Source of the DNA: Ammonifex sp. | Lineage (GTDB): Bacteria > Bacillota > Desulfotomaculia > Desulfotomaculales > DYER01 | Length of the DNA: 41,597 nt | NCBI GenBank assembly: GCA_020725605.1 | Contig: DYER01000081.1 | Location: forward strand, 1 to 41,597 | Direction of reading: 5' to 3' | Shown: piece after piece, positions 19,262 through 35,608 of the stretch | Layout: every line of letters begins with the position of its first letter | How positions within the stretch are numbered: the stretch's first letter is position 1 | Made by a program: the position numbers and the translations under genes | Notes under the pieces: model-generated | Database searches by the model: none | What the model was told of the DNA's origin: nothing | Seen by the model: the letters and a program-made list of their open reading frames with translations, nothing else

Positions 19262-20350
19262 CTAACGTTTCCTGGCCTGGATGCCGCGGGCCAGCAGGAC
19301 CTCAACGGCCCGCTCCTGGCTGGCGGCGTCGGCAAAGGCCAGCCGGATGGTACCCCCCTCCCCTTCCCGCACGCGCAGGATTTCGATATCGCTGATATTG
19401 ATTCCTGCGCGGCCGAGGTGGGTACCCACCTCCCCGATGATTCCCGGGCGGTCCGGCACCGTAATCACTACCTCGTACTGACAGGGGAGATAGCCCTTGG
19501 TACGGGCCGGCAATGCCGCCCGCACCGCGGCCGCATCCTCCAGATAGCGCCGCACGGCCAGCCCGTCGCCCTTACGGATGTACCCTTCGAGGAGGTCCAG
19601 CTCGGCCCGGAAAAGCCCCAGCATCTCGAGGAGCCGGGGGGCGTTGTACCTGAAAATATCCTCCCACAAAGGAGGATTGCTCCCCGCCACGCGCGTGGTG
19701 TCCCGGAAGCCGCCGGCGGCCAGGGCCAGCATCTCGTCGCGCTCCGGCCGGCGGCCCACGGTGCTCATCAGGGCCGCCGCCACCAGATGCGGCAGGTGGC
19801 TGACCGCGGCCATTAACCGGTCGTGGTGCCGGGGGTCCATGGTCACGACACGGGCCCCCACCCCCTCGGCCATCCCGGCCACCCTGGCGACGGCCCAATC
19901 GGGAGTCTCCGGGGTGGGCGTAATGATGTAATAGGCGTTTTCGAACAGGTAGCGGTCGGCCCCGACCATCCCCGCGTGCTCCGAACCGGCCATGGGGTGG
20001 CCTCCCACGAACCCCACCTCCGGGGGCAGGGCCCGGGAGGCCGCCTGCACCACCGGTCCCTTGACGCTGCCGGTATCCGTCACCACAGTGCCGGGGGCCA
20101 GGTGGGGCCGCAGCTCCTCGAGGACCCCGGGAATGGTACCCACCGGGGTGGCCACGACCACCACCTCGGCCCCGCGCGCCGCCTCCGGCCCCGCGGCCCG
20201 GTGGATGGCGCCGGCCTGCAGGGCCAGGCGCAGGTTCTCCTCGTTGGGGTCCACGCCCACGACCTCCCGGGCCAGCCGCCGCCCGCACAGGGCCAGCCCG
20301 AGGGACCCCCCGATGAGGCCCACGCCGACGATTACCACGCGCTCCGGCAT
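19262..20350 (-). CDS. tyrA: prephenate dehydrogenase with C-terminal ACT domain
   Basis: VVIVGVGLIGGSLGLAL...GGHPMAGSEHAG...LPHLVAAAL; C-terminal VVITVPDRPGIIGEVGTHLGRAGINISDIEI. Confidence 0.92.
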   Translation of the reverse strand: MPERVVIVGVGLIGGSLGLALCGRRLAREVVGVDPNEENLRLALQAGAIHRAAGPEAARGAEVVVVATPVGTIPGVLEELRPHLAPGTVVTDTGSVKGPVVQAASRALPPEVGFVGGHPMAGSEHAGMVGADRYLFENAYYIITPTPETPDWAVARVAGMAEGVGARVVTMDPRHHDRLMAAVSHLPHLVAAALMSTVGRRPERDEMLALAAGGFRDTTRVAGSNPPLWEDIFRYNAPRLLEMLGLFRAELDLLEGYIRKGDGLAVRRYLEDAAAVRAALPARTKGYLPCQYEVVITVPDRPGIIGEVGTHLGRAGINISDIEILRVREGEGGTIRLAFADAASQERAVEVLLARGIQARKR

Positions 20351-20359
20351 GGTTCTCCC

Positions 20360-21406
20360 TCAGCCCGCCAGGGCCACCGGAGCCTGCGGTTCGGCGATGC
20401 GCCGGCCCACGGCCGCGGCCACCCGGCGCAGGCGCTCCATCATGGCGGCAAAGTTTTCGGGAGTGAGGGATTGGGGCCCGTCACAGAGGGCCTCCATGGG
20501 ATCGGGGTGCACCTCCACCAGCAGTCCGTCCGCGCCCGCGGCCACGGCGGCCAGGGCCATGGGCGGCACGAAGCGCCACTTCCCGATGGCGTGGCTGGGG
20601 TCCACCACCACCGGCAGATGGGAGTGATGCTTGACCACCGGCACCGCGGTCAGGTCCAGGGTATTCCTGGTGTAGGAGTCGAACCCGCGGATCCCCCGCT
20701 CGCACAGGATGATGCGGTGGTTCCCGCCCAGCATAACGTACTCGGCCGCCATGAGCCACTCCTCGATGGTGGCCGAAGGACCGCGCTTCAGCAGCACGGG
20801 CTTGTCGACCCGGGCCACCTCCCGCAGCAGGCAGAAGTTCTGCATGTTGCGGGCCCCGATCTGCAGGATGTCCGCGTAGCGGGCCACCAGTTCCACCGTG
20901 CGCGGGTCCACCACTTCGGTGACCACCAGCAAGCCCGTCTCCTCCCGCGCCTCGGCCAGGATCTCCAGCCCCCTTTCCTCCAGACCCTGGAAGGAATAGG
21001 GCGAGGTGCGGGGCTTGTAGGCGCCGCCCCGCAGGATGGTGGCCCCGGCCGCCTTCACCGCCCGGGCCGCCGCCAGCAACTGCTCCCTGCTTTCCACGGC
21101 GCAGGGACCGGCCATCACGTGCACGGCCTCGCCCCCGATTTCCAGGTGACCCACCCGCACCACGCTGCCGTTCTCGTTGAAGGCCCTGCAAACCATCTTG
21201 TAGGGCTGCAGGATGGGCACCACGCGTTCCACACCCGGCATGGCCTCGAGGGCCATCTCGGCCACCCTCGTGCGGTCCCCCACCACCCCGATGATGGTGC
21301 GCTCCACGCCCCGCGAAACGTGGGCCTGAAAACCGGCCTGTTCCAGACGCGCCACCACGGCCGCAATCTGTTCCTCGCCGGCCCCGTAATTCATGACCAC
21401 GATCAT
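20360..21406 (-). CDS. aroF: 3-deoxy-7-phosphoheptulonate synthase with N-terminal ferredoxin-like regulatory domain
   Basis: [33 protein letters not shown]... regulatory domain; [15 protein letters not shown]...[26 protein letters not shown]...[10 protein letters not shown]. Confidence 0.94.
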
Positions 21407-21510
21407 GAATCCTTCCTCCCGGTAACCTTATTATGCTACGGTACCGCGGCACGACGGTACCGAGTCAATCGGGTAGCAGATGCCGATATCCCCGTGAACG
21501 CCGACCGTGA

Positions 21511-21564
21511 CTAAAATAGCAGGCACCCGCAAGGGGTGCCGTACAAAAGCAACAATAAGGCCAC
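21511..21564 (-). CDS. putative 17-aa leader peptide upstream of aroF
   Basis: GTG GCC TTA TTG TTG CTT TTG TAC GGC ACC CCT TGC GGG TGC CTG CTA TTT TAG = VALLLLLYGTPCGCLLF, preceded by GGGAGGGAG at good spacing. Confidence 0.4.
   Translation of the reverse strand: MALLLLLYGTPCGCLLF
21522..21540 (-). terminator. terminator/attenuator-like hairpin inside aroF leader mini-ORF
   Basis: GGCACCC-CTTGC-GGGTGCC followed by TGCTATTTTAG (minus strand). Confidence 0.45.
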
Positions 21565-21662
21565 CGGTCTCCCTCCCTTTCCGTCCTGCCGTCCTCCGAG
21601 GGTGCTGGTCCCGCCTGGCAAACTTTCGGCGCGGCGGGCGCCATCCTACCGTTCACGTCCTT

Positions 21663-21691
21663 ATTTTAGCACAAGGCGACCCCCTGCACAA
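21663..21691 (-). promoter_or_regulatory. putative aroF-operon promoter TTGTGC-N17-TAAAAT
   Basis: Minus strand TTGTGC(21691-21686)-17 nt-TAAAAT(21668-21663); predicts an approximately 250-nt aroF leader. Confidence 0.5.
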
Positions 21692-21935
21692 CCACCCGGT
21701 CCCCCCGCCGGCATCCGCCGCTCGCACGCGCGTACTCCGCTGCGTACCGATAAGACCGGACGTGGCTTCGAGGATCACCCCACGGTAATGGGCGTCCGGA
21801 CGCGCACGGCCAGCCTGAGCCTGCGCTCCACCTCGTCCCAGTGGACCACCCGCCACCAGGCCCGCACGTAGTCGCCGCGCCGGGCCGGCACAGCTCCGGC
21901 CCGGGCACGGGGTGCACTCCGCGGTGAAAATGCGG

Positions 21936-21964
21936 TTGACAGGGGACCGATCCCGTGGTAATAT
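21936..21964 (+). promoter_or_regulatory. trp operon promoter TTGACA-N17-TAATAT
   Basis: TTGACA 21936-21941, TAATAT 21959-21964, 17-nt spacer; probable TSS near A21971. Confidence 0.88.
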
Positions 21965-21977
21965 GTCACCAGTTGAA

Positions 21978-22027
21978 TAGCTACCAGCCGAGCAGAGCCG
22001 AGGCGAGACGAGCAGAGCTGAGATGAG
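21978..22027 (+). promoter_or_regulatory. TRAP (MtrB)-type RNA binding array in trpE leader
   Basis: Eight GAG triplets at exact 5-nt period starting 21990, 21995, 22000, 22005, 22010, 22015, 22020, 22025; preceded by CAG at 21985 (in phase) and UAG at 21978. Confidence 0.9.
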
Positions 22028-22049
22028 GGCGCCTTTTACCGGTCAAGAG

Positions 22050-22083
22050 CCGGCGCTCCGTCTGAGTGCCGGTTTTCGTTTTT
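22050..22083 (+). terminator. trp leader intrinsic terminator (attenuator)
   Basis: CCGGCGCUC-CGUCU-GAGUGCCGG (one G-U) then UUUUCGUUUUU, upstream of the probable trpE start at 22093; a competing antiterminator pairing is GGGCGCC(22027-22033) with GGCGCUC(22052-22058). Confidence 0.85.
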
Positions 22084-22092
22084 CCGCGGGGG

Positions 22093-23586
22093 GTGGCAAG
22101 GCTGTACTATCCCGGCGAGAAGGAATTCGCGGCCCTGGTCCGGTCAGGCTACAACCTGATACCGGTCTGGACCGAATGGACCGCGGACCTGGACACCCCC
22201 ATCTCCATCTACAAGAGGCTGGCGCCGCGCGCCCCTTCCTTTCTCCTGGAAAGCGTGGAGGGCGGCGCCTACCTGGCCCGCTACTCTTTCCTGGGCTGTG
22301 ATCCCTTCCTGGTCTTCCGTTACCGCTCCGGGCGGGCGGAGCTATCGGTCAACGGCGCGCGCCGCACGGTCTCCGGCAGGCCCCTGGAGCTGCTCCGCAC
22401 GAGCCTGGAGGGCTACCGCGTGCCGCCCCTGGAAGGGTTGCCCCGCTTCTGGGGCGGGGCGGTGGGATACCTGGGCTACGACGTGGTACGCTACCTGGAA
22501 AGGCTCCCCGCGCGGGCCGCGGACGACCTGAACCTCCCGGAGGCGGTCTTCGTTTTTCCCGGGGCCGTCCTGGTGTTCGACCATCTGTACCAGCAGGTGC
22601 GGGCCGTCGCCAACCTGCCGGTAACCGGGGAGCCGGAACGGGCCTACAGGCGGGCCGTGGCCTGCCTGGAGGCCCTGGTGACCGCGGCCCGCGACGGCCC
22701 ACCGCAGGCCTACGGGGTCCCCGCCGTGAGGCGGGCCTGCGCCGCGCTTGAGCCCCGCTCCAACGTGGGATACGATAGGTTCACCGCGGCCGTGCAGCGG
22801 GCCGGCGAGTACATCCGGGCCGGCGACGTCCTCCAGGTGGTCCTTTCCCAGCGGCTGGAGGTGCCCTTTGCCGGCAGCCCCTTCGAGGTCTACCGCCGGC
22901 TGCGGGCCCTGAATCCCTCCCCCTACATGTTCTACCTGGACCTGGGGGGGCCGGTACTCGTGGGCTCTTCTCCGGAGATGCTGGTGCGGGTGGAGGGCGG
23001 GGTGGCGGAAACCAGGCCCATCGCCGGCACGCGGCCGCGAGGGAAAGACGCCGCCGAGGACGAATTACTGGCGCGGGAGCTGTTCGAGGACCCGAAGGAA
23101 AGGGCCGAGCACGTGATGCTGGTGGACCTGGGGCGCAACGACCTGGGCCGGGTCTGCCGTCCGGGCTCGGTGACCGTGACCAGGTTCATGGTCACCGAAA
23201 GGTTCTCCCACGTCATGCACCTGGTGTCCCACGTGCGCGGAGAGCTGGCCCCGGGAAAATCGGCCTTCGACGCCCTGGCCGCCTGCTTTCCGGCCGGCAC
23301 GGTCTCCGGGGCGCCCAAGGTGCGGGCCATGGAGATCATCGAGGAACTGGAGCCCGTGCGCCGCGGCCCCTACGCCGGGGCCGTGGGCTACTTCAGCTTC
23401 GACGGCAACATGGACACCTGCATCACCATCCGCACCATCCTCATCCACGACGGGCGCGCCTACGTTCAGGCCGGGGCGGGCATCGTGGCCGATTCGGTGC
23501 CGGAACGGGAGTATTTCGAGACCCTGAACAAGGCGCGGGCACTCCTGGAAACCCTGGGGGGAAACGGGCATGGTGCTCATGATTGA
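22093..23586 (+). CDS. trpE: anthranilate synthase component I
   Basis: [25 protein letters not shown]...[18 protein letters not shown]...[46 protein letters not shown]...; start placed at GTG 22093 after the attenuator rather than 22066 inside it. Confidence 0.94.
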
Positions 23587-24139
23587 TAATTACGATTCCT
23601 TTACCTACAACCTGGTGCAGTACCTGGGCGAGCTGGGGCAGGAGGTGCTGGTGTACCGCAACGACAAAATCACCCTGGACCAGATCGCGGCCCTGAAGCC
23701 CTCCCACGTCATCCTATCGCCCGGGCCCTGCACCCCCAACGAGGCCGGGATCTGCCTGGACCTCATCCGGTACTTCGCCGGGCGGATTCCCATTCTGGGC
23801 GTGTGCCTCGGGCACCAGGCCATCGGCCAGGCCTTCGGCGGCCGGGTGGTGCGGGCGCCCCGCCTGATGCACGGCAAGACCTCGGCCATCCACCACGACG
23901 GCCGCACCATCTTCGCCGGCATCCCGAGCCCCTTCACCGCCACGCGCTACCACTCGCTCATCGTAGAAAAGGATAGCCTGCCCGACTGCCTGGAGGTTAC
24001 GGCCTGGACCGACATGGGCGAGATCATGGGCCTGCGCCACAGGGCGCTGCCGGTGGAGGGGGTGCAGTTCCACCCCGAATCCATCCTGACGGAGTACGGC
24101 CACGACCTGCTGGCCAACTTCCTGCGGCTGGGCCTTTGA
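23570..24139 (+). CDS. trpG: anthranilate synthase component II (glutamine amidotransferase)
   Basis: [20 protein letters not shown]...[14 protein letters not shown]...[15 protein letters not shown]...[14 protein letters not shown]. Confidence 0.95.
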
Positions 24140-24194
24140 GGGTGAGAAGGGGCGCGACTTACGAGACGAGCGGAGGCGAGACGAGCATGCTGAG
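24138..24194 (+). promoter_or_regulatory. second TRAP-type GAG array over the trpD ribosome-binding site
   Basis: Five GAG at exact 5-nt period (24163, 24168, 24173, 24178, 24183) plus flanking GAG at 24138, 24144 and 24192; spans SD GGAGG 24172-24176 and the ATG at 24187. Confidence 0.75.
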
Positions 24195-25221
24195 GGAAGC
24201 CATTGCCCGCGTGGTGGCGGGCGAGCACCTGGACGAGCGCACCGCGGAGGCGGTCATGGGGGCCATCATGCAAGGAAAGGCCACGCCGGCCCAGGTCGGG
24301 GCCCTGCTGGTGGGCCTGCGCATGAAGGGGGAGACGGTGGGTGAGATCACCGGTTTTGCCCGCGCCATGCGCTCCCACGCCCGGAGGGTCGATTTTCCCC
24401 ATCCCCTGCTGGCCGACACCTGCGGCACGGGCGGCGACGGGGCGGGCACCTTCAACATCTCCACCGGCGCGGCCCTGGTGGCCGCGGCCGCGGGGCTACC
24501 CGTGGCCAAGCACGGAAACCGGTCCGTTTCCAGCCGGTGCGGCAGCGCCGACGTACTGGAGGCCCTGGGGGTACCGGTCGAGATGGATCCGGCGCAGGCG
24601 CGGGCCTGCCTGGAGGCCACGGGCTTTACCTTTCTCTTCGCCCCCCTTTTCCACCCCGCCATGCGCCACGCCGCTGGCCCCCGCCGGGAGGTAGGGGTGC
24701 GCACGGTCTTCAACGTCCTCGGACCCCTGACCAACCCGGCCGGCGCCCGGGTCCAGGTCGTGGGGGTGTTTCATCCGCAGCTGGTCCGTCCCCTGGCCGA
24801 GGTGCTTCAGCACCTGGGCGTAAGGGAGGCCTTCGTGGTGCACGGGGCCGGCGGCACCGACGAGCTCACGCCGGCCGGTCCGGCCGTGTTCTGCCGGGCT
24901 GCGGACGGGCGGCTCGAGGAAGGGTACCTGGACCCCGCGGATTACGGCTTCGCGCGCGCGCCGCTGGAGGCCCTGGCGGGCGGCGACGCCGCCACCAACG
25001 CGCGCATCTTACGCGAGGTGCTGGAAGGCCGGCCCGGACCGCGACGCGACGCCGTGGTGCTGAACGCGGCCCTGGCCCTGGTGGCCGGTGGCCTGGCGGG
25101 CGACCTCAAGGAGGGCCTCCACCTGGCGCAGACCACCATCGATTCCGGGGCCGCCCTGGGCAAGCTCGAGGAAGTGGTATCCTTCGGCCGCCGCCTCGGA
25201 GGCCGGGACGGGGGCGTGTGA
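24187..25221 (+). CDS. trpD: anthranilate phosphoribosyltransferase
   Basis: MLREAIARVVAGEHLDERTAEAVMGAIMQG...DTCGTGGDGAGTFNISTGAALVAAAAGLPVAKHGNRSVSSRCGSADVLEALG. Confidence 0.95.
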   Translation: MLREAIARVVAGEHLDERTAEAVMGAIMQGKATPAQVGALLVGLRMKGETVGEITGFARAMRSHARRVDFPHPLLADTCGTGGDGAGTFNISTGAALVAAAAGLPVAKHGNRSVSSRCGSADVLEALGVPVEMDPAQARACLEATGFTFLFAPLFHPAMRHAAGPRREVGVRTVFNVLGPLTNPAGARVQVVGVFHPQLVRPLAEVLQHLGVREAFVVHGAGGTDELTPAGPAVFCRAADGRLEEGYLDPADYGFARAPLEALAGGDAATNARILREVLEGRPGPRRDAVVLNAALALVAGGLAGDLKEGLHLAQTTIDSGAALGKLEEVVSFGRRLGGRDGGV

Positions 25222-25222
25222 A

Positions 25223-26014
25223 GTGCTCCTGGACACCATCGTGGCCGCCCGCAGGACCTCCCTGGAGCGCGCCCGGGTCGCAACCCCCCTCGAGGCCGTG
25301 AGGCGGGCCGCGGCCGCCGCGCCGCCGGCCCGGCCCCTGGCCGCGCGCCTCAGGATCCCGGGAAAGGTGGCGGTCATCGCCGAGATCAAGCGGGCCTCGC
25401 CGGTCAAGGGCATCCTGCGGGAGGAGTTCGACCCCGTGGCCCTGGCCCGGGCCTACACCAGGGGGGGTGCGGCGGCCATTTCGGTGATTACCGAGGAGGA
25501 ATTCTTCCGGGGCAGCCCCGCCTTCCTGCCCGCCGTGCGCGGCGTCGCGCCCCTGCCCCTGCTCAGGAAGGACTTCATCTTCGACCCCTACCAGATTTAC
25601 GAGTCCCGGGCCCTGGGCGCGGACGCGGTGCTCCTGATCGCGGCCATCCTGGACCAGGTCCAGCTCGCCGGCCTTCTGACCCTGACCCGGGAGCTGGGCA
25701 TGGAGGCCCTGGTGGAGGTGCACACCGCGGAGGAGCTGCGGCGGGCCCTGGCCGCGGGCGCGCGGCTGATCGGCATAAACAACCGGGACTTGCGGTCCTT
25801 TCACACGGACCTGAACACCACCTTCGCTTTGCGTGGCCACATCCCGGACCCGGAGGTGACCGTGGTGAGCGAAAGCGGCATCCGCGCGCCGGAGGACCTC
25901 CGGCGCCTCGCCGCGGCCGGGGTCCACGCGGCCCTCATCGGCGAGGCCCTGGTGCGCGCCCCGGACCCGGAGGCACTCCTCAGGGAACTGGTGAAAGGCG
26001 GGTCCGGAGCATGA
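25223..26014 (+). CDS. trpC: indole-3-glycerol phosphate synthase
   Basis: VIAEIKRASPVKGILREEFDPVALARAYTRGGAAAISVITEEEFFRGS...LLRKDFIFDPYQIYESRALGADAVLLI...GINNRDLRSF. Confidence 0.95.
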   Translation: MLLDTIVAARRTSLERARVATPLEAVRRAAAAAPPARPLAARLRIPGKVAVIAEIKRASPVKGILREEFDPVALARAYTRGGAAAISVITEEEFFRGSPAFLPAVRGVAPLPLLRKDFIFDPYQIYESRALGADAVLLIAAILDQVQLAGLLTLTRELGMEALVEVHTAEELRRALAAGARLIGINNRDLRSFHTDLNTTFALRGHIPDPEVTVVSESGIRAPEDLRRLAAAGVHAALIGEALVRAPDPEALLRELVKGGSGA

Positions 26015-26700
26015 TCGGGGTGAAGATATGCGGCATAAGGGACCCGGAGGCCGCCCTGGCCGCCGTGGCGGCGGGAGCCGACGCCCTGGGCTTCGTCTTC
26101 GCGCCCGGCCGCCGCCGCGTCGCCCCCGGGGAGGCGCGGGCCATCGTCGCGGCCCTGCCGCCCTTCGTGCTGACCGTGGGAGTCTTCGTGGACGCGCCGC
26201 TTTCGCAAGTGCTGGAGATCGCGGACCTGTGCCGGCTCCACGCCGTGCAGCTCCACGGCCGGGAACCGCCGGAATACTGCCGCGCCGTGCCGAGGCCGGT
26301 GATCAGGGCCTTCCACCTGCCCGCGGCCGACGAACCCCTGGACGAAGACGAGGCCGCGTTGCGGGCCGAGGCCCTTCTGGCCGCCGTGAAGCGCTACGAC
26401 CCCTGCGCCGTGCTGCTGGACACCGGCACGCCGGACCGGCCCGGCGGCACCGGCCGGCCGGGGAACTGGACGGTGGCCCGGCTCGTGGCCGCGCGGCGAC
26501 CGGTCGTCCTGGCCGGGGGGCTTAACCCGGACAACGTGGCCGAGGCGGTGCGACACGTGCGGCCCTGCGGGGTGGACGTCAGCAGCGGCGTGGAAACCGA
26601 CGGCAAAAAAGACCCGGAGAAAATCCTGGCCTTCGTGGCCCGCGCGAAACAGGCCCTGTGTGCCACCGGGCAGCACGCAACGCCCGGACCCGCCCGGTAG
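26011..26700 (+). CDS. trpF: phosphoribosylanthranilate isomerase
   Basis: [34 protein letters not shown]...VQLHG...LAGGLNPDNVAEAV...GVDVSSGVET. Confidence 0.95.
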   Translation: MIGVKICGIRDPEAALAAVAAGADALGFVFAPGRRRVAPGEARAIVAALPPFVLTVGVFVDAPLSQVLEIADLCRLHAVQLHGREPPEYCRAVPRPVIRAFHLPAADEPLDEDEAALRAEALLAAVKRYDPCAVLLDTGTPDRPGGTGRPGNWTVARLVAARRPVVLAGGLNPDNVAEAVRHVRPCGVDVSSGVETDGKKDPEKILAFVARAKQALCATGQHATPGPAR

Positions 26701-26763
26701 CGGGGCGGCTGGGCCCGCGGCCGATACCACACACGGCCAGGATACCTTGAGGAGGCATGCACC

Positions 26764-27960
26764 GTGCACGCGGCAACACTACCCGACGCCCGGGGCTACT
26801 TCGGCCCCTACGGCGGGCGCTTCGTTCCGGAAACGCTGATGCCCGCCCTGGAAGAGCTGACCGCGGCCTACCGGGCGGCCCGGGAAGACGAGACCTTCCG
26901 CGAGGAACTGAATTACTACCTGCGGCACTACGTGGGGCGCCCCTCGCCCCTGTACTTCGCGGCCCGGCTTTCGGAAACCCTGGGTGGCGCACGCATCTAC
27001 CTGAAGCGCGAGGACCTGAACCACACCGGGGCCCACAAGATCAACAACACCATCGGCCAGATCCTGCTGGCCCGCCGCATGGGCAAGACCCGGGTCATTG
27101 CCGAGACCGGGGCCGGCCAGCACGGGGTGGCCACGGCCACCGCCGCGGCCCTCTTCGGCCTGGAATGCGCGGTCTACATGGGAGAGGAGGACATCCGGCG
27201 CCAGGCCCTGAACGTGTTCCGCATGCGCCTGCTGGGCGCCACCGTGGTGCCCGTGGCGGCCGGACAGAAAACCCTGAAGGACGCCATGAACGAGGCCATC
27301 CGCGACTGGGTCACCAACGTGCGCACGACCTACTACCTCATCGGCTCGGTGGCCGGGCCGCACCCCTACCCGGCCATGGTGCGCGACTTCCAGTCCGTCA
27401 TCGGCCACGAGGCGCGGCAGCAAATTCTCGAACAGGCCGGACGCCTCCCGGATTGCATCATCGCCTGCGTGGGCGGGGGCAGCAACGCCATGGGCATCTT
27501 CTACCCCTTCCTGGACGAGGACGTGGCCCTGGTGGGCGTGGAGGCCGGGGGCACGGGCACCGCGCCCGGAGAGCACGCCGCCACCCTCAATTACGGCCTG
27601 CCCGGGGTGCTGCACGGCTCCTACAGCTACCTGCTGCAGGACGAGGACGGCCAGGTGCTGCCCGTGCACTCCGTGGCCGCCGGCCTGGACTACCCGGGGG
27701 TGGGGCCGGAGCACAGCCTGCTCCGGGACACGGGTCGGGTGCGCTACACCACGGCCTCGGACCGCGAAGCCCTGGCGGCCTTCGAACTGCTGTGCCGCAC
27801 CGAAGGCATCATGCCGGCCCTGGAGAGCGCCCACGCCCTGGCCGAAGCGGTGCGCCTGGCGCCGACCATGGGCCGGGACCGCATCATTCTGGTCAACCTC
27901 TCCGGCCGCGGTGATAAGGACGTGCACACCGTGGCCGCCCACCTGGGGGTGCAACTGTGA
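26764..27960 (+). CDS. trpB: tryptophan synthase beta subunit
   Basis: [19 protein letters not shown]...[56 protein letters not shown]. Confidence 0.97.
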
Positions 27961-28775
27961 ACCGCCTGGCAACCTGCCTCAATGACCTGGCCTCCCGAGG
28001 GGAAAAGGGTCTCATCGCCTACCTCATGGCCGGGGACCCGTCGCCGGACGCCACGCCCCTGCTGGTGGAGGCCGTGGCCCGGGCCGGGGCCGACATCGTG
28101 GAACTGGGCATTCCCTTCTCGGACCCCCTGGCGGACGGCCCCGTAATCCAGGCCGCGGGCCAGCGGGCCCTGCGTTCCGGGACCACCATGGCCGGGGTGC
28201 TGTCCCTGGCGGCCCGCATCCGCGAGAAGATCCCCGTGCCCCTGGTGTTCATGACCTACTACAATCCAATCTTGCGCTACGGCCCGGAGCGCTTCGTGGC
28301 CGACGCGGCGCGGGCCGGTGCCGACGGGCTCATCGTCCCCGACCTGCCCGTGGAAGAAGCCGGTAGCTTGCGCGACCTGGCCGACGCCGCGGGCCTGGCC
28401 CTGGTCCCCCTCGTGGCCCCTACCACGCCGGACGAGCGGATCGGGACCATCGCGGCCTGCGCCCGGGGATTTATCTACTGCGTGTCCCTGACCGGCGTCA
28501 CGGGCGTGCGGGACCGGCTCCCGCCGGAGGTGGCGGAGTTCACGGCCCGCGTGCGCCGACACGCCCGCCTGCCCATCGCCCTGGGTTTCGGCATTTCCAA
28601 GCCCGAACACGTGGCCGCGGTGGCCCCCCTGGTGGACGCCGTCGTGGTCGGCAGCGCCCTGGTGAGGATGGTCGGTGAAAACGCAAAAGAGCCCGAGATA
28701 CTGGCGGACCGGCTGGCCGCCTTCGTCCGTGCCCTCAAGGAACCCCTCAGAAATGAGGCCGGCGCGAAGCCGTAA
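27957..28775 (+). CDS. trpA: tryptophan synthase alpha subunit
   Basis: [49 protein letters not shown]...[13 protein letters not shown]...[10 protein letters not shown]. Confidence 0.96.
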
Positions 28776-28907
28776 CGGGCCGCACGGTGCCGGCCGCGCC
28801 GGGTACCCCGGGCGGACCGCGGCGGCCCCGGATATGACGTCCGCCGCCGGCGCACCATTCACCAGGCCCGAACAAACCCCGCCGGCTCCCGGAGGTGAAC
28901 AGAGCCC

Positions 28908-29741
28908 ATGGAGGTCAAGTTCCGCCTGGCCGCACGCCACAACGCCCAGGCGCGGACCGCGGTGCAGATCGGCCCGGTAACCGTCGGCCGGGAGGACCTC
29001 GTCATTATGGCCGGCCCCTGCGCCGTGGAGGACTACGACCGCACCCTGGCCGCGGCCCTGGCCCTCAAAGAATACGGCGCTCACATTTTTCGCGGCGGTG
29101 CCTTCAAGCCCCGGACCTCGCCTTACTCCTTCCAGGGGTTAGGAAAGGAGGGCCTCGAGATCCTGGCCGCGGTGCGGGACGCCACCGGGCTGCCCGTGGT
29201 CACGGAGGTGCTGGACACCCGGGACGTGGAGCTGGTCTGCCGTTACGCCGACGTCATCCAGATCGGCAGCCGCAACATGCACAACTACGCCCTGCTGCGC
29301 GAGGTCGGGCGGGCCCGGAAGCCCGTGCTGCTGAAGCGGGGCCTGGCCGCGACCCTGGAGGAGTGGCTGCTGGCGGCCGAGTACGTCCTGGCCGAAGGGA
29401 ACGACCGGGTGATCCTGTGCGAGCGGGGTATCCGCACCTTCGAAACCCACACGCGCAACACCCTGGACGTGGGCGCCATCGCGGCGGCCAGGAACCTGAG
29501 CCACCTGCCGGTCATCGCGGACCCCAGCCACGCCGCGGGAAGGCGGGACCTGGTGGCGCCGCTGGCCCTGGCCGCCGTGGCGGCGGGTGCCGACGGGGTC
29601 ATGGTGGAGGTGCACCCCTGCCCGGGGGAGGCCCTGTGCGACGGGGACCAGTCCCTCGATCCCGCCGCCTTTGCCCGCCTGGTCCCCTTACTCCGGCAGG
29701 TGGCGCTCGCCCGCAACGGCCTGGCCGCCGCAGCGGGTTAA
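28908..29741 (+). CDS. aroF: 3-deoxy-7-phosphoheptulonate synthase, short form lacking the N-terminal regulatory domain
   Basis: [56 protein letters not shown]...[21 protein letters not shown]...ADPSHAAGRRDLV. Confidence 0.94.
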   Translation: MEVKFRLAARHNAQARTAVQIGPVTVGREDLVIMAGPCAVEDYDRTLAAALALKEYGAHIFRGGAFKPRTSPYSFQGLGKEGLEILAAVRDATGLPVVTEVLDTRDVELVCRYADVIQIGSRNMHNYALLREVGRARKPVLLKRGLAATLEEWLLAAEYVLAEGNDRVILCERGIRTFETHTRNTLDVGAIAAARNLSHLPVIADPSHAAGRRDLVAPLALAAVAAGADGVMVEVHPCPGEALCDGDQSLDPAAFARLVPLLRQVALARNGLAAAAG

Positions 29742-29819
29742 GCCCGAGGGCCGAGCGACCGGGTAGCCGGAAGCCTGAAGCCCGAAAACTCAGTGCGTCC
29801 CCTCCGAGGGGCGGCTCCG

Positions 29820-29858
29820 AGGGGCGGCCCGGACTTCCCGGCCGCCCCTGGCTTTTTT
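29820..29858 (+). terminator. strong intrinsic terminator of the trp/aroF operon
   Basis: AGGGGCGGCC-(10-nt loop)-GGCCGCCCCT-GGC-TTTTTT. Confidence 0.85.
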
Positions 29859-29902
29859 GGGCCCGTGGTCTCGATAAGGAATGCTCCCGCACCGGTCCCC
29901 TA

Positions 29903-29931
29903 TGGACAGCCGGCCCCGGCTCTGGTATACT
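29903..29931 (+). promoter_or_regulatory. putative promoter TGGACA-N17-TATACT upstream of DUF169 gene
   Basis: Hexamers read directly, 17-nt spacer, just after the trp-operon terminator. Confidence 0.6.
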
Positions 29932-30004
29932 CGACCTGAGGATAAAGTTAGGGTGCGAACGTTCAAGCACGCGCCCGCAAAACCGCTGGTCCGGAGGTGC
30001 CGCC

Positions 30005-30733
30005 GTGCAACCCTGGCAGGAATGGAGCCGCCGTCTCAAGGAAGTCCTGGGCCTGGACAGTGGCCCGGTGGCCGTGACCTACACCGACGTCCCGGCCACC
30101 AACGGCCGGGCAAAACGCGTTATGGCCTGCGCGGCCTTCCACCTGGCGCGCAAGGGTATGACCTTCAACTTAACCGCCGAACGGTCCGTTTGCCCCGGGG
30201 GAACCCGTCACCTGGGCCTGGCAGAGGACACCTCCTGGGAATCCTTTCAGGCCACCAAGCGTTTCCTGGTACACGGAGAGAAGTTTCGGAGCTGCTACGC
30301 CGCGTACTTCCGTTCGGGGGTCATGAACCCCGCCCGTCCCCCTTACTATCTGGCCGAATACGTCGTCGTCGGTCCCGCCGAAGAGGCCGAGCAGAAGCCG
30401 GACCTGTTCCTGATCTTCTGCGAGCCGGCCCAGGCCAGCCGCCTCGTGGTGCTGGCCACCTTTGAGAGCGGGCTACCCCTGAAGGTCCAGGTATCCGGTT
30501 CGACCTGCGGCAGCGCCGTGACCTACCCCCTGGCCACGGGCCGCATCAACGTCAGCTTCATCGATCCCAGCAGTCGCCATCTGGTCAAGGGCTTCAAGCC
30601 CGGCGAACTGATCTTCAGCGTACCGTACTTCTACATGCCCAGCATCATTGACGCCATCGACAGGTCCACGGCCGGCACCGCCGCGCCGGGCATGACCTTC
30701 GGCGAACTCCTGAGCGGCGTGAAAGGCCGGTGA
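30005..30733 (+). CDS. DUF169 domain-containing protein
   Basis: GTG start; VQPWQEWSRRLKEVLGLDSGPVAVTYTDVPATN...MACAAFHLARKGMTFNLTAERSVCPGGTRHLGL...EYVVVGPAEEAEQKPDLFLIFCEPAQASRLV. Confidence 0.82.
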   Translation: MQPWQEWSRRLKEVLGLDSGPVAVTYTDVPATNGRAKRVMACAAFHLARKGMTFNLTAERSVCPGGTRHLGLAEDTSWESFQATKRFLVHGEKFRSCYAAYFRSGVMNPARPPYYLAEYVVVGPAEEAEQKPDLFLIFCEPAQASRLVVLATFESGLPLKVQVSGSTCGSAVTYPLATGRINVSFIDPSSRHLVKGFKPGELIFSVPYFYMPSIIDAIDRSTAGTAAPGMTFGELLSGVKGR

Positions 30734-30739
30734 TGCCGG

Positions 30740-31708
30740 GTGGCCCTGGGACGGGCTCTGCAACTGCCGCGCGAACTCCTGGTCGTCGGTGCGGCCATGG
30801 AAACGGGCCTGCTGGACGCGTTGAAGGAGGCCCCGCGCAGCGCCGCGATCCTCGCCGCCGACCTCGGCCTGGACCCCCGCGCCACCCGGGTGGTGCTGGA
30901 GGCCCTGGTGGACCTGGGCTACTGCGTCCGGGAGGGAGAAAACTTCCGGTTGAGCGACGGGGCATACCGGATGCTCTACGGGGAGTCGGAGGCGCCGGAC
31001 ACCGGTTTCCCTTTCATGCACGCATACAACCTGCTGGCCTCCTGGCTGGCCCTGCCGGAGGTGCTGCGCTCCGGCCGGCCGGCCCCGCGCCGTCGCGACC
31101 CGGCCCGGCAGCGGCACTACGTCGCGGCCATGCGCCACCACGCGAAGGCCTACGCGCCGGCGGTGGTGGACCTCTGCCTGGCCGGGCTGCAACCGCCGGT
31201 GCGGGTGCTGGACGTAGGGGGCGGGCCCCTGACCTTCGCCGAGGAGTTCGCCCGGCGGGGGGCCGAGGTGGTGGTCCTGGACGTTCCCGAAGTGGTGGAG
31301 ATGATGGCGCCCCAGGCGGCCCGGGAGCCGCGCATCACCATGGTGGCCGGGGACTTCAACGTGGCCCTGCCGCCGGGGCCCTTCGACGTCGCCTACCTCG
31401 GCAACGTGACCCACATCTACGGCGAAGGCGAAAACCGCGCCCTCTTTTGCCGCGTGGCGGCGGTGCTGCGGCCCGGAGGCCGCATCGCCGTCACCGACTT
31501 CATAAGGGGCGTCAGCCCCGGAGCGGCCCTCTTTGCCGTCAACATGCTGGTCAACACCGAAAGGGGCGGCACCTGGACCCTGGGCCAGTACCGATCCTGG
31601 CTGCGCGACGCGGGGTTCTCGGAGCCGGAACTGCACGAGGCCGGCGGCCGTCACGTCCTCCTGGCCGCCAGACAAAACCGGCACACCTTGCGGGAGAGCG
31701 GAATATGA
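30740..31708 (+). CDS. SAM-dependent O-methyltransferase (dimerisation plus Rossmann domain, acetylserotonin O-methyltransferase-like)
   Basis: N-terminal winged-helix-like domain; VRVLDVGGGPLTFAEEFARRGAEVVVLDVPEVVEMM...ITMVAGDFNVALPPGPFDVAYLGNVTHIYGEGENRALFCRVAAVLRPGGRIAVTDF. Confidence 0.85.
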   Translation: MALGRALQLPRELLVVGAAMETGLLDALKEAPRSAAILAADLGLDPRATRVVLEALVDLGYCVREGENFRLSDGAYRMLYGESEAPDTGFPFMHAYNLLASWLALPEVLRSGRPAPRRRDPARQRHYVAAMRHHAKAYAPAVVDLCLAGLQPPVRVLDVGGGPLTFAEEFARRGAEVVVLDVPEVVEMMAPQAAREPRITMVAGDFNVALPPGPFDVAYLGNVTHIYGEGENRALFCRVAAVLRPGGRIAVTDFIRGVSPGAALFAVNMLVNTERGGTWTLGQYRSWLRDAGFSEPELHEAGGRHVLLAARQNRHTLRESGI

Positions 31709-32235
31709 GCGAGGAATTGCGGAACAAAGCCCGTCGCATCAGGGATCTGCTGCACGGTGTCACGCGCAACCTGCGGCGTTACATCTTTTCGGAAATCGCG
31801 GGTTGCGGCCTGACCGTGCCCCAGCTCTTTCTCGTCCAGGAACTCCAGACCCAACCGGGATTGACCCTGACCGAACTCAGCGAGCGCCTGGGCCTTTCCA
31901 AGAGTACGGTCAGCGGGATGGTGGACCGGCTGCTGCGCCAGGGGGTAATCACGCGAAGGCGCAGTGAAACCGATCGGCGGGTGGTACACCTGTACCTGGC
32001 TCCGGCCCTGCTGAAGCAAACCAGCCGCCTGACCGTGCTGAAGGAAAACTACCTGGCCCGACTGCTGGGCCGTCTGGAACCCGGTGAGGTGGACGAAATC
32101 ATCGCCGCCCTGGAGAAACTCGAACTGCTGGTCGATGCCGCATCGCCCGGGCTGCCCCTGGAGGGCCCCACCACGGCCCGCGAAATTCGGCCCGGGATGG
32201 GAATGAAAGCCGGAGGGGAGGAGGGTACCAGATGA
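31705..32235 (+). CDS. MarR-family transcriptional regulator
   Basis: LTLTELSERLGLSKSTVSGMVDRLLRQGVITRRRSETDRRVVHLYL; ATG at 31705. Confidence 0.88.
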   Translation: MSEELRNKARRIRDLLHGVTRNLRRYIFSEIAGCGLTVPQLFLVQELQTQPGLTLTELSERLGLSKSTVSGMVDRLLRQGVITRRRSETDRRVVHLYLAPALLKQTSRLTVLKENYLARLLGRLEPGEVDEIIAALEKLELLVDAASPGLPLEGPTTAREIRPGMGMKAGGEEGTR

Positions 32236-33680
32236 CGCCGGGGCCGGTCAAAACCGGCAAATGGCACGTCCTGGGCACCGTGGGGTTCGGGACCTTCGTC
32301 TCGGCCCTCAACGCCAGCATGATGAACCTCGCCCTGCCCTTCGTCGGTGCCCACTTCCAGGCCCGCATGCCGGTGGCCGAGTGGGTCATCATGGCCTTTC
32401 TGCTGACCATTTCCACGTTGCTGCTCGTTTTCGGCCGGCTGGGAGATACGTACGGTTTTCGGAAAGTCTATCTGCTGGGGACCGCCGTCTTCACCGTCGG
32501 TTCCGTGCTCTGCGGATTTGCCCCGTCCATCTACCACCTGATCGCCTTCCGGATCCTCCAGGGGCTGGGGGCGGCCATGATAATGGCCATCGGCCCGGCC
32601 ATCCTCACCGCGGCCTTTCCGCCCCAGGAACGGGGCAAGGCCCTGGGATTCCTGGGCGTCTTCGTGGCCTCGGCCCTGGCCTCCGGGCCCACCCTCGGCG
32701 GTCTGCTCCTGAAATACGCCGGCTGGGAGTTTATTTTTTTCATTAACGGGCCGCTGGGAGTGCTGATCATGGTCTGGACCTGGCTGGTGCTGGCGCCCAC
32801 GCCCCGGAGCCCCCAGCGCTTCGACCTGCCGGGAGCGGTCACCCTGTTCCTGGCCCTGGGGGCCCTGCTGCTGGCCCTCAGCCACGGGGAAGAGTGGGGG
32901 TGGGGGTCACGAGCCATCCGCACGCTGCTTCTCACCGCGGCCCTGTTCTTCCCCCTCTTCGTGTGGCGGGAACTCACCTGCCCGGCGCCCATGATGGAAC
33001 TGCGCCTCTTCAAGAACCGCCTTTTCTCCGCGGCCACCGCCAGCGCGGTGTGCAACTTCATAGTCCAGTACATGGTGGTCTTCATGCTGCCCTTTTACTT
33101 CAAGGACGTACTGCGCCTGGACGCGGCCCAGGCCGGCGTGCTGCTCTCTGCCTTTCCCCTCGTCATCCTGGTGGTGGCGCCCCTCAGCGGCACGCTCTCC
33201 GACCGCATCGGCTCCCGGGGCCTGAGTTCCCTCGGCATGGCCGTTTCGGCGGTGTCGCTGGCCCTCCTGAGCCGGCTTACCCCCGAGAGTGCCTGGCCGG
33301 AAATCGTATGGCCCCTGGTGCTCCTGGGCCTCGGCAACGGCATCTTCCAGTCACCCAACAGCAGCGCCCTGATGGGCAGTGTGCCCCGCACCCACCTGGG
33401 CGTGGCCGGTGGCATGCTGGCCACGGCGCGCAACGGCGGCATGGTCCTGGGCGTGGCCCTGGCAGGGGCCGTGTTCAACCATCGGCTCCCGTTACACCTG
33501 GCCGCCACGGGCTCCGGTACGGTCGAAGCGGCGCACCTGGCCTTCGCCGCCGCGCTTCACGACACCATGCTGGTGGGCGCAGGCGTGGCCCTGGTCGGCA
33601 TGGCCACCTCCCTGGTACGCGGTGCGCCGGCGGGCGGGCCCGCCCGCCGGCCCGGGCCGGAACGGCCGGAAATGGAATAA
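32232..33680 (+). CDS. MFS transporter, DHA2-type (EmrB/QacA-like) drug efflux family
   Basis: Multi-TM; FGTFVSALNASMMNLALPFVGAHF...LLLVFGRLGDTYGFRKVYLLG...GRALGFLGV-like GKALGFLGVFVASALASGPTLGGLLL. Confidence 0.9.
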   Translation: MTPGPVKTGKWHVLGTVGFGTFVSALNASMMNLALPFVGAHFQARMPVAEWVIMAFLLTISTLLLVFGRLGDTYGFRKVYLLGTAVFTVGSVLCGFAPSIYHLIAFRILQGLGAAMIMAIGPAILTAAFPPQERGKALGFLGVFVASALASGPTLGGLLLKYAGWEFIFFINGPLGVLIMVWTWLVLAPTPRSPQRFDLPGAVTLFLALGALLLALSHGEEWGWGSRAIRTLLLTAALFFPLFVWRELTCPAPMMELRLFKNRLFSAATASAVCNFIVQYMVVFMLPFYFKDVLRLDAAQAGVLLSAFPLVILVVAPLSGTLSDRIGSRGLSSLGMAVSAVSLALLSRLTPESAWPEIVWPLVLLGLGNGIFQSPNSSALMGSVPRTHLGVAGGMLATARNGGMVLGVALAGAVFNHRLPLHLAATGSGTVEAAHLAFAAALHDTMLVGAGVALVGMATSLVRGAPAGGPARRPGPERPEME

Positions 33681-33682
33681 GC

Positions 33683-35608
33683 CTAACTCTCCCACATCAC
33701 GCGGCCGCAATCCCGCAGGTCGTAGCCGCCGAGCGCGGCCACCCTTTCCCGGAACTCCGCCGAGTTGACGACGTCCATCACCCGCCGCACCACGGGCCGG
33801 TCCCAGTAGGCCTTGAGGAAGCACAGGTCGTAGCGTTCCTGGAGCACGGGGATGAACTCCAGGTTCAGGGCCCGCGCCGCGGCCAGAATCCCCAGGCCCG
33901 CGTCGGCCCGCCCGCTGGCCACGGCCACCGCCACGGCCATGTGGGTGAACTCCTCGTTCTCGTAGCCCCTGATCTGGTCCGGTGAAAGGCCCAGTTGCTT
34001 GAGCTTGTAGTCGAGGAGCACCCGGGTCCCGGCCCCCTTCTGGCGGTTCACAAAGCGCACCTCCGGTCGCGCCAGGTCCGAGATGTCGTGGATGCCTTTG
34101 GGGTTGCCCGGCCGCACCATCAGACCCTGCTCCCGGTAGGCCAGGTTGACCAGCACCACCGGCGTGCCGGGAAGGAGCCGCCGCAGGTAGGGCACGTTGT
34201 ACTCGCCGGTCTCCTCGTCCAGCAGGTGGGTCCCCGCCGCGTGGGCCTCGCCCCGCCTCAAAGCCAGCAGCCCGGCCATACTGCCCACGTGGGCCGACGA
34301 CAGCCCCGCCTCCGGGTACTTACGTTTCAGCAGGTCGGCCAGGACGTCCAGGGCCAGGTCGTGGCTGCCGATGACCACCACGGTCTGGGCGATCTCCTCC
34401 GGGGAGCGCAGGAGTTCCACCTCCACCCGCTGCCCGGCCTCCACCCCTTCTGCGGCGGCCGGAATCCTCAGGATGCCGTCGGCCCGGATGAGGGAAGTGA
34501 TGAGCCCGGCCCCCCGGGCCAGGGGCGTGGCGATGAGCTTCTCGCCCACCTGACCCAGTTTGACGCGCACGAACTCCTCCACGCCCATGGCCGACACCAG
34601 GCGCCGGGAAAGCACCGCGGCGGTCCGCGGCCGCGCCGGCGGCACCCGGCCCTGCAGGCGGAATACCACCGGTTTCAGGAACAGCTCCGCGGCCAGCACC
34701 GCCGAAACGGGATAGCCCGGTACGCCCATGACCGGCCGCCCGGCCACCTCCCCCAGCACCACCGGCTTACCGGGGCGGGTGGCCACCCCGTGCACCAGCA
34801 CGTTCCCCAGGGAGCGGAGCACCTCGGCCGTGAAATCCTCTCGACCGGCGGAAGAACCGGCGATGAGGGCCACCACCCGGTGGTCCGACACGGCCCGCCT
34901 GACCGCGGCCGCCAGGGCCTCGGGGTCGTCGCGCACGATCCCCATCCTGGTGGCCGTGCCGCCCCACTCCTCCACCAGGGCCGCCAGCACCCGCGAGTTG
35001 TAATCGACGACGTGGCCCGGCTCGAGCGCACTGCCGGGCTCCACCACCTCGTCGCCCGTGGCGATGACGGCCACCCGGGGCCGGGCCAGCACCGCCACCT
35101 CCGTGACGCCCCCGGCGAGCAGGCCCCCGATGTCCACCGGCCGCAACCGGTGGTGGGCCGGGAGGATCATCTCGGTGGCCACGATATCCTCCCCCACCAC
35201 CCTCACGTGCTGCCAGGGTACGGCCGGGGCCACGATTTCCACCACCCCCGGCTCCACAAAGTGCACGTCCTCGATCATGATCACGGCGTCGCAGCCGGGG
35301 GGCAGCGGATCGCCGGTGTCCACGGGGAAGGCCTCGGCGCCGAGGCGCAAACGCAGCGGGGTCACCTCGCTGGCGCCGAAGGTGGCCGCGGCCTGCACGG
35401 CCAGGCCGTCCATGGCCGCCGAGTGGTAGTGGGGGGACGAAAGGCGGGCAAAGACCGGCTCGGCCGTGACCCGGCCCACGGCCCGCTCCGCCGCCACGAC
35501 TTCCGGGGGCCCGGGCGCCAGGGCCCCCACCCCCTCCAGGTGCTCCAGCCAGCGCTCCAGGGCCTCGGGCCAGGGCCGGTCCTCCAGATAGACGTTGCGT
35601 TTGGGCAA
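33683..35608 (-). CDS. moeA: MoeA-family molybdopterin biosynthesis protein fused to a C-terminal periplasmic-binding-protein-like domain
   Basis: MoeA core (VDTGDPLPPGCDAVIMIEDV, VAVIATGDEVVEPGS, VDYNSRVLAALVEEWGG, GVPGYPVSA) plus C-terminal HDLALDVLADLLKRKYPEAGLSSAHVGSMAGLLALRRGEAHAAGTHLLDEETGEYN. Confidence 0.9.
   Translation of the reverse strand: MPKRNVYLEDRPWPEALERWLEHLEGVGALAPGPPEVVAAERAVGRVTAEPVFARLSSPHYHSAAMDGLAVQAAATFGASEVTPLRLRLGAEAFPVDTGDPLPPGCDAVIMIEDVHFVEPGVVEIVAPAVPWQHVRVVGEDIVATEMILPAHHRLRPVDIGGLLAGGVTEVAVLARPRVAVIATGDEVVEPGSALEPGHVVDYNSRVLAALVEEWGGTATRMGIVRDDPEALAAAVRRAVSDHRVVALIAGSSAGREDFTAEVLRSLGNVLVHGVATRPGKPVVLGEVAGRPVMGVPGYPVSAVLAAELFLKPVVFRLQGRVPPARPRTAAVLSRRLVSAMGVEEFVRVKLGQVGEKLIATPLARGAGLITSLIRADGILRIPAAAEGVEAGQRVEVELLRSPEEIAQTVVVIGSHDLALDVLADLLKRKYPEAGLSSAHVGSMAGLLALRRGEAHAAGTHLLDEETGEYNVPYLRRLLPGTPVVLVNLAYREQGLMVRPGNPKGIHDISDLARPEVRFVNRQKGAGTRVLLDYKLKQLGLSPDQIRGYENEEFTHMAVAVAVASGRADAGLGILAAARALNLEFIPVLQERYDLCFLKAYWDRPVVRRVMDVVNSAEFRERVAALGGYDLRDCGRVMWES

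Follow-up and report, generated by a model that had tools for sequence, protein, structure and literature searches.

Why should a row of regularly spaced GAG triplets, of the kind bound by the regulator TRAP, lie in the interior of a tryptophan operon and across the start of trpD? TRAP, a textbook example of a regulator that binds RNA, is known chiefly from Bacillus and has a short list of targets. The row in question is found on an Ammonifex sp. contig (DYER01000081.1), all 41,597 nt of which were analyzed and are hereafter called the window. Here, the trp genes follow the order trpE-G-D-C-F-B-A, and all features of the operon described below lie on the forward strand.

At the trpG/trpD junction, five contiguous GAG triplets starting at 24163, 24168, 24173, 24178, and 24183 are separated by 2-nt spacers, in keeping with the (G/U)AG triplets and 2–3-nt spacers of TRAP sites. 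The trpD ATG (24187–24189) sits between the fifth triplet and a sixth GAG (24192–24194), which comes after a 6-nt gap and belongs to the trpD coding start; together they form a TRAP-type array at 24163..24194 that is conserved in relatives. Two further GAGs (24138–24140 and 24144–24146; GAGggtGAG, 24138..24146) with a 3-nt spacer are located at the trpG stop, 16 nt away from the main array, and may offer additional TRAP contacts, although their contribution is uncertain. The junction holds eight GAGs in total; arrays in relatives have between 3 and about 9 triplets. Direct reading thus confirms the initial annotation, which had described five GAGs at an exact 5-nt period with three more flanking them next to the trpD ATG, as well as a GGAGG Shine-Dalgarno sequence (24172..24176) inside the array. 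This GGAGG, 10 nt upstream of the ATG, is the only strong Shine-Dalgarno sequence there, and the ATG itself is a conserved start, since alignments with relatives begin at residue 1–2. The array therefore overlaps both the Shine-Dalgarno and the start codon, as a site of translational repression by TRAP requires. Folding of the 151-nt trpD region is slightly weaker than that of shuffled sequences (z +1.38), yet the minimum free energy structure pairs part of the array.

Such repeats are rare in this DNA. Five in-register KAGNN units occur in the 41.6-kb window only at the trpD junction and in the trp leader (21990–22027), and in none of 100 dinucleotide shuffles of the window. The draft genome (2.2 Mb, 85% complete) contains one further place with at least five exact repeats, C79:3297-3324(-). 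The fuller array there, C79:3289-3324(-), consists of six exact GAG repeats and a TAG, is followed by a G+C-rich hairpin, and has no evident target among the neighbouring genes, which include Xre-like regulators and one resembling a methyltransferase. Because GAG is identical when read backwards, a reversed-pattern control was unusable in the genome searches for exact repeats.

An mtrB gene, for which the initial annotation had advised looking, is indeed encoded in the same genome, away from the trp operon (C64:4443-4646; Pfam TrpBP, E 6e-42). The product scores above the cut-off of the NCBIfam MtrB equivalog, and its close relatives in the PDB are all TRAP. Furthermore, its sequence (SEKLDKGE...AIKVRG) keeps RNA-binding residues: counterparts of E36-K37/D39 and K56/R58 can be read, among them residues that match the Lys/Lys/Arg (KKR) RNA-binding motif known from B. 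subtilis.

The operon begins with an ordinary TRAP attenuator. A sigma-70-like promoter (21936..21964; TTGACA-17-TAATAT, with a TG 5' of the second hexamer) is the sole promoter-like site detected within 21700–29500, and an array of one TAG and eight GAGs at an exact 5-nt period (21978..22027) lies about 5–15 nt 3' of the expected transcription start. Downstream of the array, a predicted antiterminator (22020..22062), in which the last repeats, GAGatGAGGGCGCC, pair with the 5' arm of the terminator, overlaps an intrinsic terminator (22046..22083). When folding was performed with and without the array blocked, masking of the array switched the prediction from the antiterminator to the terminator. 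Promoter, array, antiterminator, and terminator together make up a canonical TRAP attenuator layout. With its five contiguous triplets, the trpD array does not reach the length of the one in the leader. A comparison of 21300–34000 with Rfam detected neither a T-box nor any other relevant family, and the sole match, mir-598, is far under its gathering score; T-box or leader-peptide control would share with TRAP the Trp-responsive control of trp genes.

The leader is followed by trpE (anthranilate synthase I, 22093..23586; Pfam Chorismate_bind and Anth_synt_I_N), with a likely GTG start at 22093 in a frame open from 22066. The start of trpG (23570..24139), the sole trpG-like gene in the draft genome at E<=1e-30, lies inside the end of trpE with a 17-nt overlap. 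Next come trpD (anthranilate phosphoribosyltransferase, 24187..25221), assigned by homologue match; trpC (25223..26014; Pfam IGPS), which starts 2 nt past the trpD stop; trpF (26011..26700; Pfam PRAI), which overlaps the trpC stop; trpB (26764..27960), an open frame that located trpB in relatives when used as tblastn query; and trpA (27957..28775; Pfam Trp_syntA), which overlaps the trpB stop.

To place the trpD array in a wider context, the trp regions of 100 relatives (101 with the window) were compared, each covering about 19 kb around trpD with the trp genes placed by tblastn. Chains of (G/U)AG with 2–3-nt spacers were scored from -70 to +25 of each start, and a score of at least 4 was called an array. 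In TRAP-encoding genomes, 42 of the 95 scorable trpD starts (44%) carry an array, compared to none of 825 starts of non-trp genes in the same regions (Fisher p about 2e-46, a value uncorrected for shared ancestry among the relatives and thus overstating their independence). Leaders reach this score in 72% of cases, and starts of trpC, trpF, trpB, trpA, and trpG almost never do (0–2%). No array was found at the six trpD starts of genomes in which mtrB was not detected, a small group within the phylum, or at 54 trpD starts from outside Bacillota. At least one trpD array is present in 17 of 30 families. Within Halanaerobiales, both Halonatronum saccharophilum and a Halanaerobiaceae MAG have TRAP and a trpD array, and Desulfosporosinus fructosivorans has neither. 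This spread over families and into Halanaerobiales argues against a local accident. Conversely, about half of the TRAP-bearing relatives are without a trpD array.

The trpD starts with an array are mainly those that trpG does not overlap. Arrays are found at 35 of 49 trpD starts that follow trpG at a distance of at least 25 nt and at 1 of 26 that overlap trpG or nearly so, a dependence that is partly mechanical because an array requires space. Some trpD starts with a gap of at least 25 nt (those of family f14 and two of f17) are nevertheless among those without an array. A TRAP site at every gapped junction was ruled out, as the starts of trpC, trpF, trpB, and trpA have no arrays even at gaps of at least 25 nt; since these equally wide downstream junctions are free of arrays, the site is particular to trpD. 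By eye, trpG copy number and the trpD array did not show the obvious relation that might be expected if the array compensated for a single shared trpG. One family, f16 (loci L087, L088, L091, L082, and L110, and including Desulfotruncus alcoholivorax, L170), has a long trpE–trpG gap in which another promoter-like sequence accompanies a TRAP array and a terminator, and its trpGDCFBA genes seem to have a second attenuator of their own. Most f16 genomes with this second attenuator still retain the trpD array.

The composition of the arrays also points to TRAP. When 96 classes of triplet were compared, each permitting two letters at the first position and a single one at the second and third, [GT]AG yielded more period-5/6 arrays at trpD than any other, and TAG stands in for GAG in some relatives. 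In orthologues the triplets are kept and the spacers drift, as at a translational-repression site. Within 30 nt of the start, KAG columns have an identity of 0.92 compared to 0.52 for other columns in family f11, and of 0.70 compared to 0.40 in f16; in family f8 the values are 0.61 and 0.36, all of these contrasts being partly built in because KAG columns were picked on the same alignment. Arrays in relatives overlap the Shine-Dalgarno and often the trpD start codon too. Accordingly, trpD starts with GTG in 26 of 42 cases with an array and in 7 of 53 without, since the final GAG of an array and the start codon then share a G (GAGTG). The initial annotation had called for a comparison of trpG/trpD junctions in relatives; GAG periodicity does recur there in many families, with the remaining bases drifting.

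We consider it probable, at roughly 0.87, that tryptophan-loaded TRAP covers the trpD ribosome-binding site and thereby forms a translational gate backing up attenuation at the leader. The mtrB gene and the conserved array support the earlier proposal that a TRAP-type site on trpD provides a second, translational layer of Trp feedback. At high tryptophan, TRAP would act first at the leader, where binding to the 21978–22027 array would free the terminator. Transcripts that got past this point would be bound at trpD, where TRAP would wrap the GAG repeats at the Shine-Dalgarno and start and block ribosome binding. Located 47 nt past trpG, trpD has its own ribosome-binding site. A block at trpD would be expected to lower the output of trpC and trpF too, because both follow trpD directly (2-nt spacing, then overlap). 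From sequence comparison we infer all four elements of this model, namely that TRAP binds at trpD, that it does so in a tryptophan-dependent way, that it represses trpD, and that trpC and trpF are lowered in turn. Studied TRAP sites of B. subtilis contain about 9–11 triplets; having only five contiguous ones, the trpD site may bind TRAP with modest affinity.

The repeats could alternatively be an extended or duplicated Shine-Dalgarno, or a purine-rich enhancer at an inefficient start, that involves no TRAP. The GGAGG within the array and the GAGGAG present in many trpD starts of relatives fit this explanation, and the Shine-Dalgarno-like part of the array is purine-rich in any case. Against it, none of the 825 other starts in the same regions reaches the array score, and the trpC, trpF, trpB, and trpA starts stay below it even with long gaps. 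On these grounds a plain Shine-Dalgarno effect was rejected. The complete lack of arrays at trpD homologues outside Bacillota, the top rank of (G/U)AG at period 5–6, and the acceptance of TAG for GAG also count against it, and we regard it as quite improbable. A slightly better case, though still an unlikely one, can be made for TRAP binding at trpD but acting on transcription or mRNA stability, for instance by freeing a stalled polymerase or promoting mRNA decay, and not on the access of ribosomes. The array does sit inside a transcribed operon, and one report (PMC3913778) describes attenuator-independent termination that TRAP induces at the leader of B. subtilis. Against this, no terminator-like hairpin lies directly 3' of the trpD array, unlike at the leader, a result that also led us to reject a transcription attenuator at trpD; moreover, the arrays of relatives extend over the Shine-Dalgarno and in many cases over the start codon as well.

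The comparable array at C79:3289-3324, which has no evident gene target, could be taken to mean that such repeats arise by chance, or at the trpG/trpD junction by coding constraint. Given the shuffles and the conservation, the array being found again in 17 families as well as in Halanaerobiales, a chance repeat was rejected, and we see hardly any likelihood in this explanation. Translational gating by TRAP at trpD remains our preferred reading.

How does the trpD site compare with known TRAP systems? At trpG, trpP (yhaG), and ycbK of B. subtilis, TRAP directly blocks ribosome binding (PMC11255114). The trpD site resembles these in its (G/U)AG triplets over the ribosome-binding site and start, in the regulator family, and in the direct ribosome block proposed here. 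It differs in its location: the three B. subtilis genes are not part of the trp operon, whereas the trpD site is inside it, downstream of an attenuator on the same transcript. The contiguous repeats at trpD are also fewer, and the final GAG in relatives often extends into a GTG start. The window leader is like that of B. subtilis trpEDCFBA in having an array, an antiterminator sharing its last repeats, and a terminator. In contrast to the B. subtilis trpE leader, the trpD site lacks a terminator and its array lies on the Shine-Dalgarno itself; in B. subtilis, trpE translation is repressed via a hairpin that sequesters the Shine-Dalgarno and not through TRAP covering it directly. The initial annotation knew of no described TRAP site within trpD, and we found no earlier report of one in the open-access literature searched. 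Within that literature, the trpD site appears to be a new variant of TRAP translational control. Beyond that annotation, the comparison reveals that the site is widespread and mainly on non-overlapped trpD, that similar arrays occur on trpB2, and that the leader holds a full attenuator.

The trpD site adds a recurrent intra-operonic target of TRAP across many families. It makes testable how one metabolite sensor could act at differing thresholds along one transcript, and why a checkpoint is placed at trpD. The natural variation in array length can furthermore be used to study how many triplets the 11-subunit ring needs. One tentative generalization, which we hold to be rather less likely than its opposite, is a punctuated TRAP operon, in which a leader attenuator is combined with a separate array for each independently starting cistron of the upstream half. 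In that case, compact arrays of 4–6 triplets joined directly to the start codon would form a class of their own, weaker than leader arrays and engaged at a different tryptophan level, allowing stepwise shut-off by one protein. Such a scheme would accommodate both the widespread trpD arrays and the trpG array found where trpE and trpG are far apart, as a second complete promoter–array–terminator unit.

Searches for six exact repeats in 60 genomes returned mostly Trp-related genes, several of the target names coming from reading of translations and not from family search. The targets include trpE leaders, trpD, trpB, trpB2, a TrpP-like transporter, and a TrpX-like binding protein, as well as an indolepyruvate oxidoreductase-like alpha subunit and a DctP-like binding protein. 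In the Ammonifex genome itself, trpB2 (NCBIfam TrpB-like; C44:4386-5753(-), L051) carries GAGttGAGccGAGgtGAG, with four GAGs, over its Shine-Dalgarno and GTG start. At the same position, most relatives (L280–L309) have 3–6 triplets; trpB2 is a likely second translational target of TRAP. Upstream of the window's trp operon, the divergent genes for DAHP synthase (20360–21406(-)) and prephenate dehydrogenase (19262–20350(-)) have no array scoring at least 4.5 (19262–21406). At three other loci (L262, L267, and L270), TRAP-type arrays of at least six repeats lie 5' of a gene identified, by eye only, as one for an indolepyruvate ferredoxin oxidoreductase alpha subunit, suggesting that TRAP may control aromatic amino acid catabolism. 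TRAP-type arrays also lie 5' of a gene for a DctP-like solute-binding protein, likewise identified by eye only, in three species of family f8 (L271, L272, and L273).
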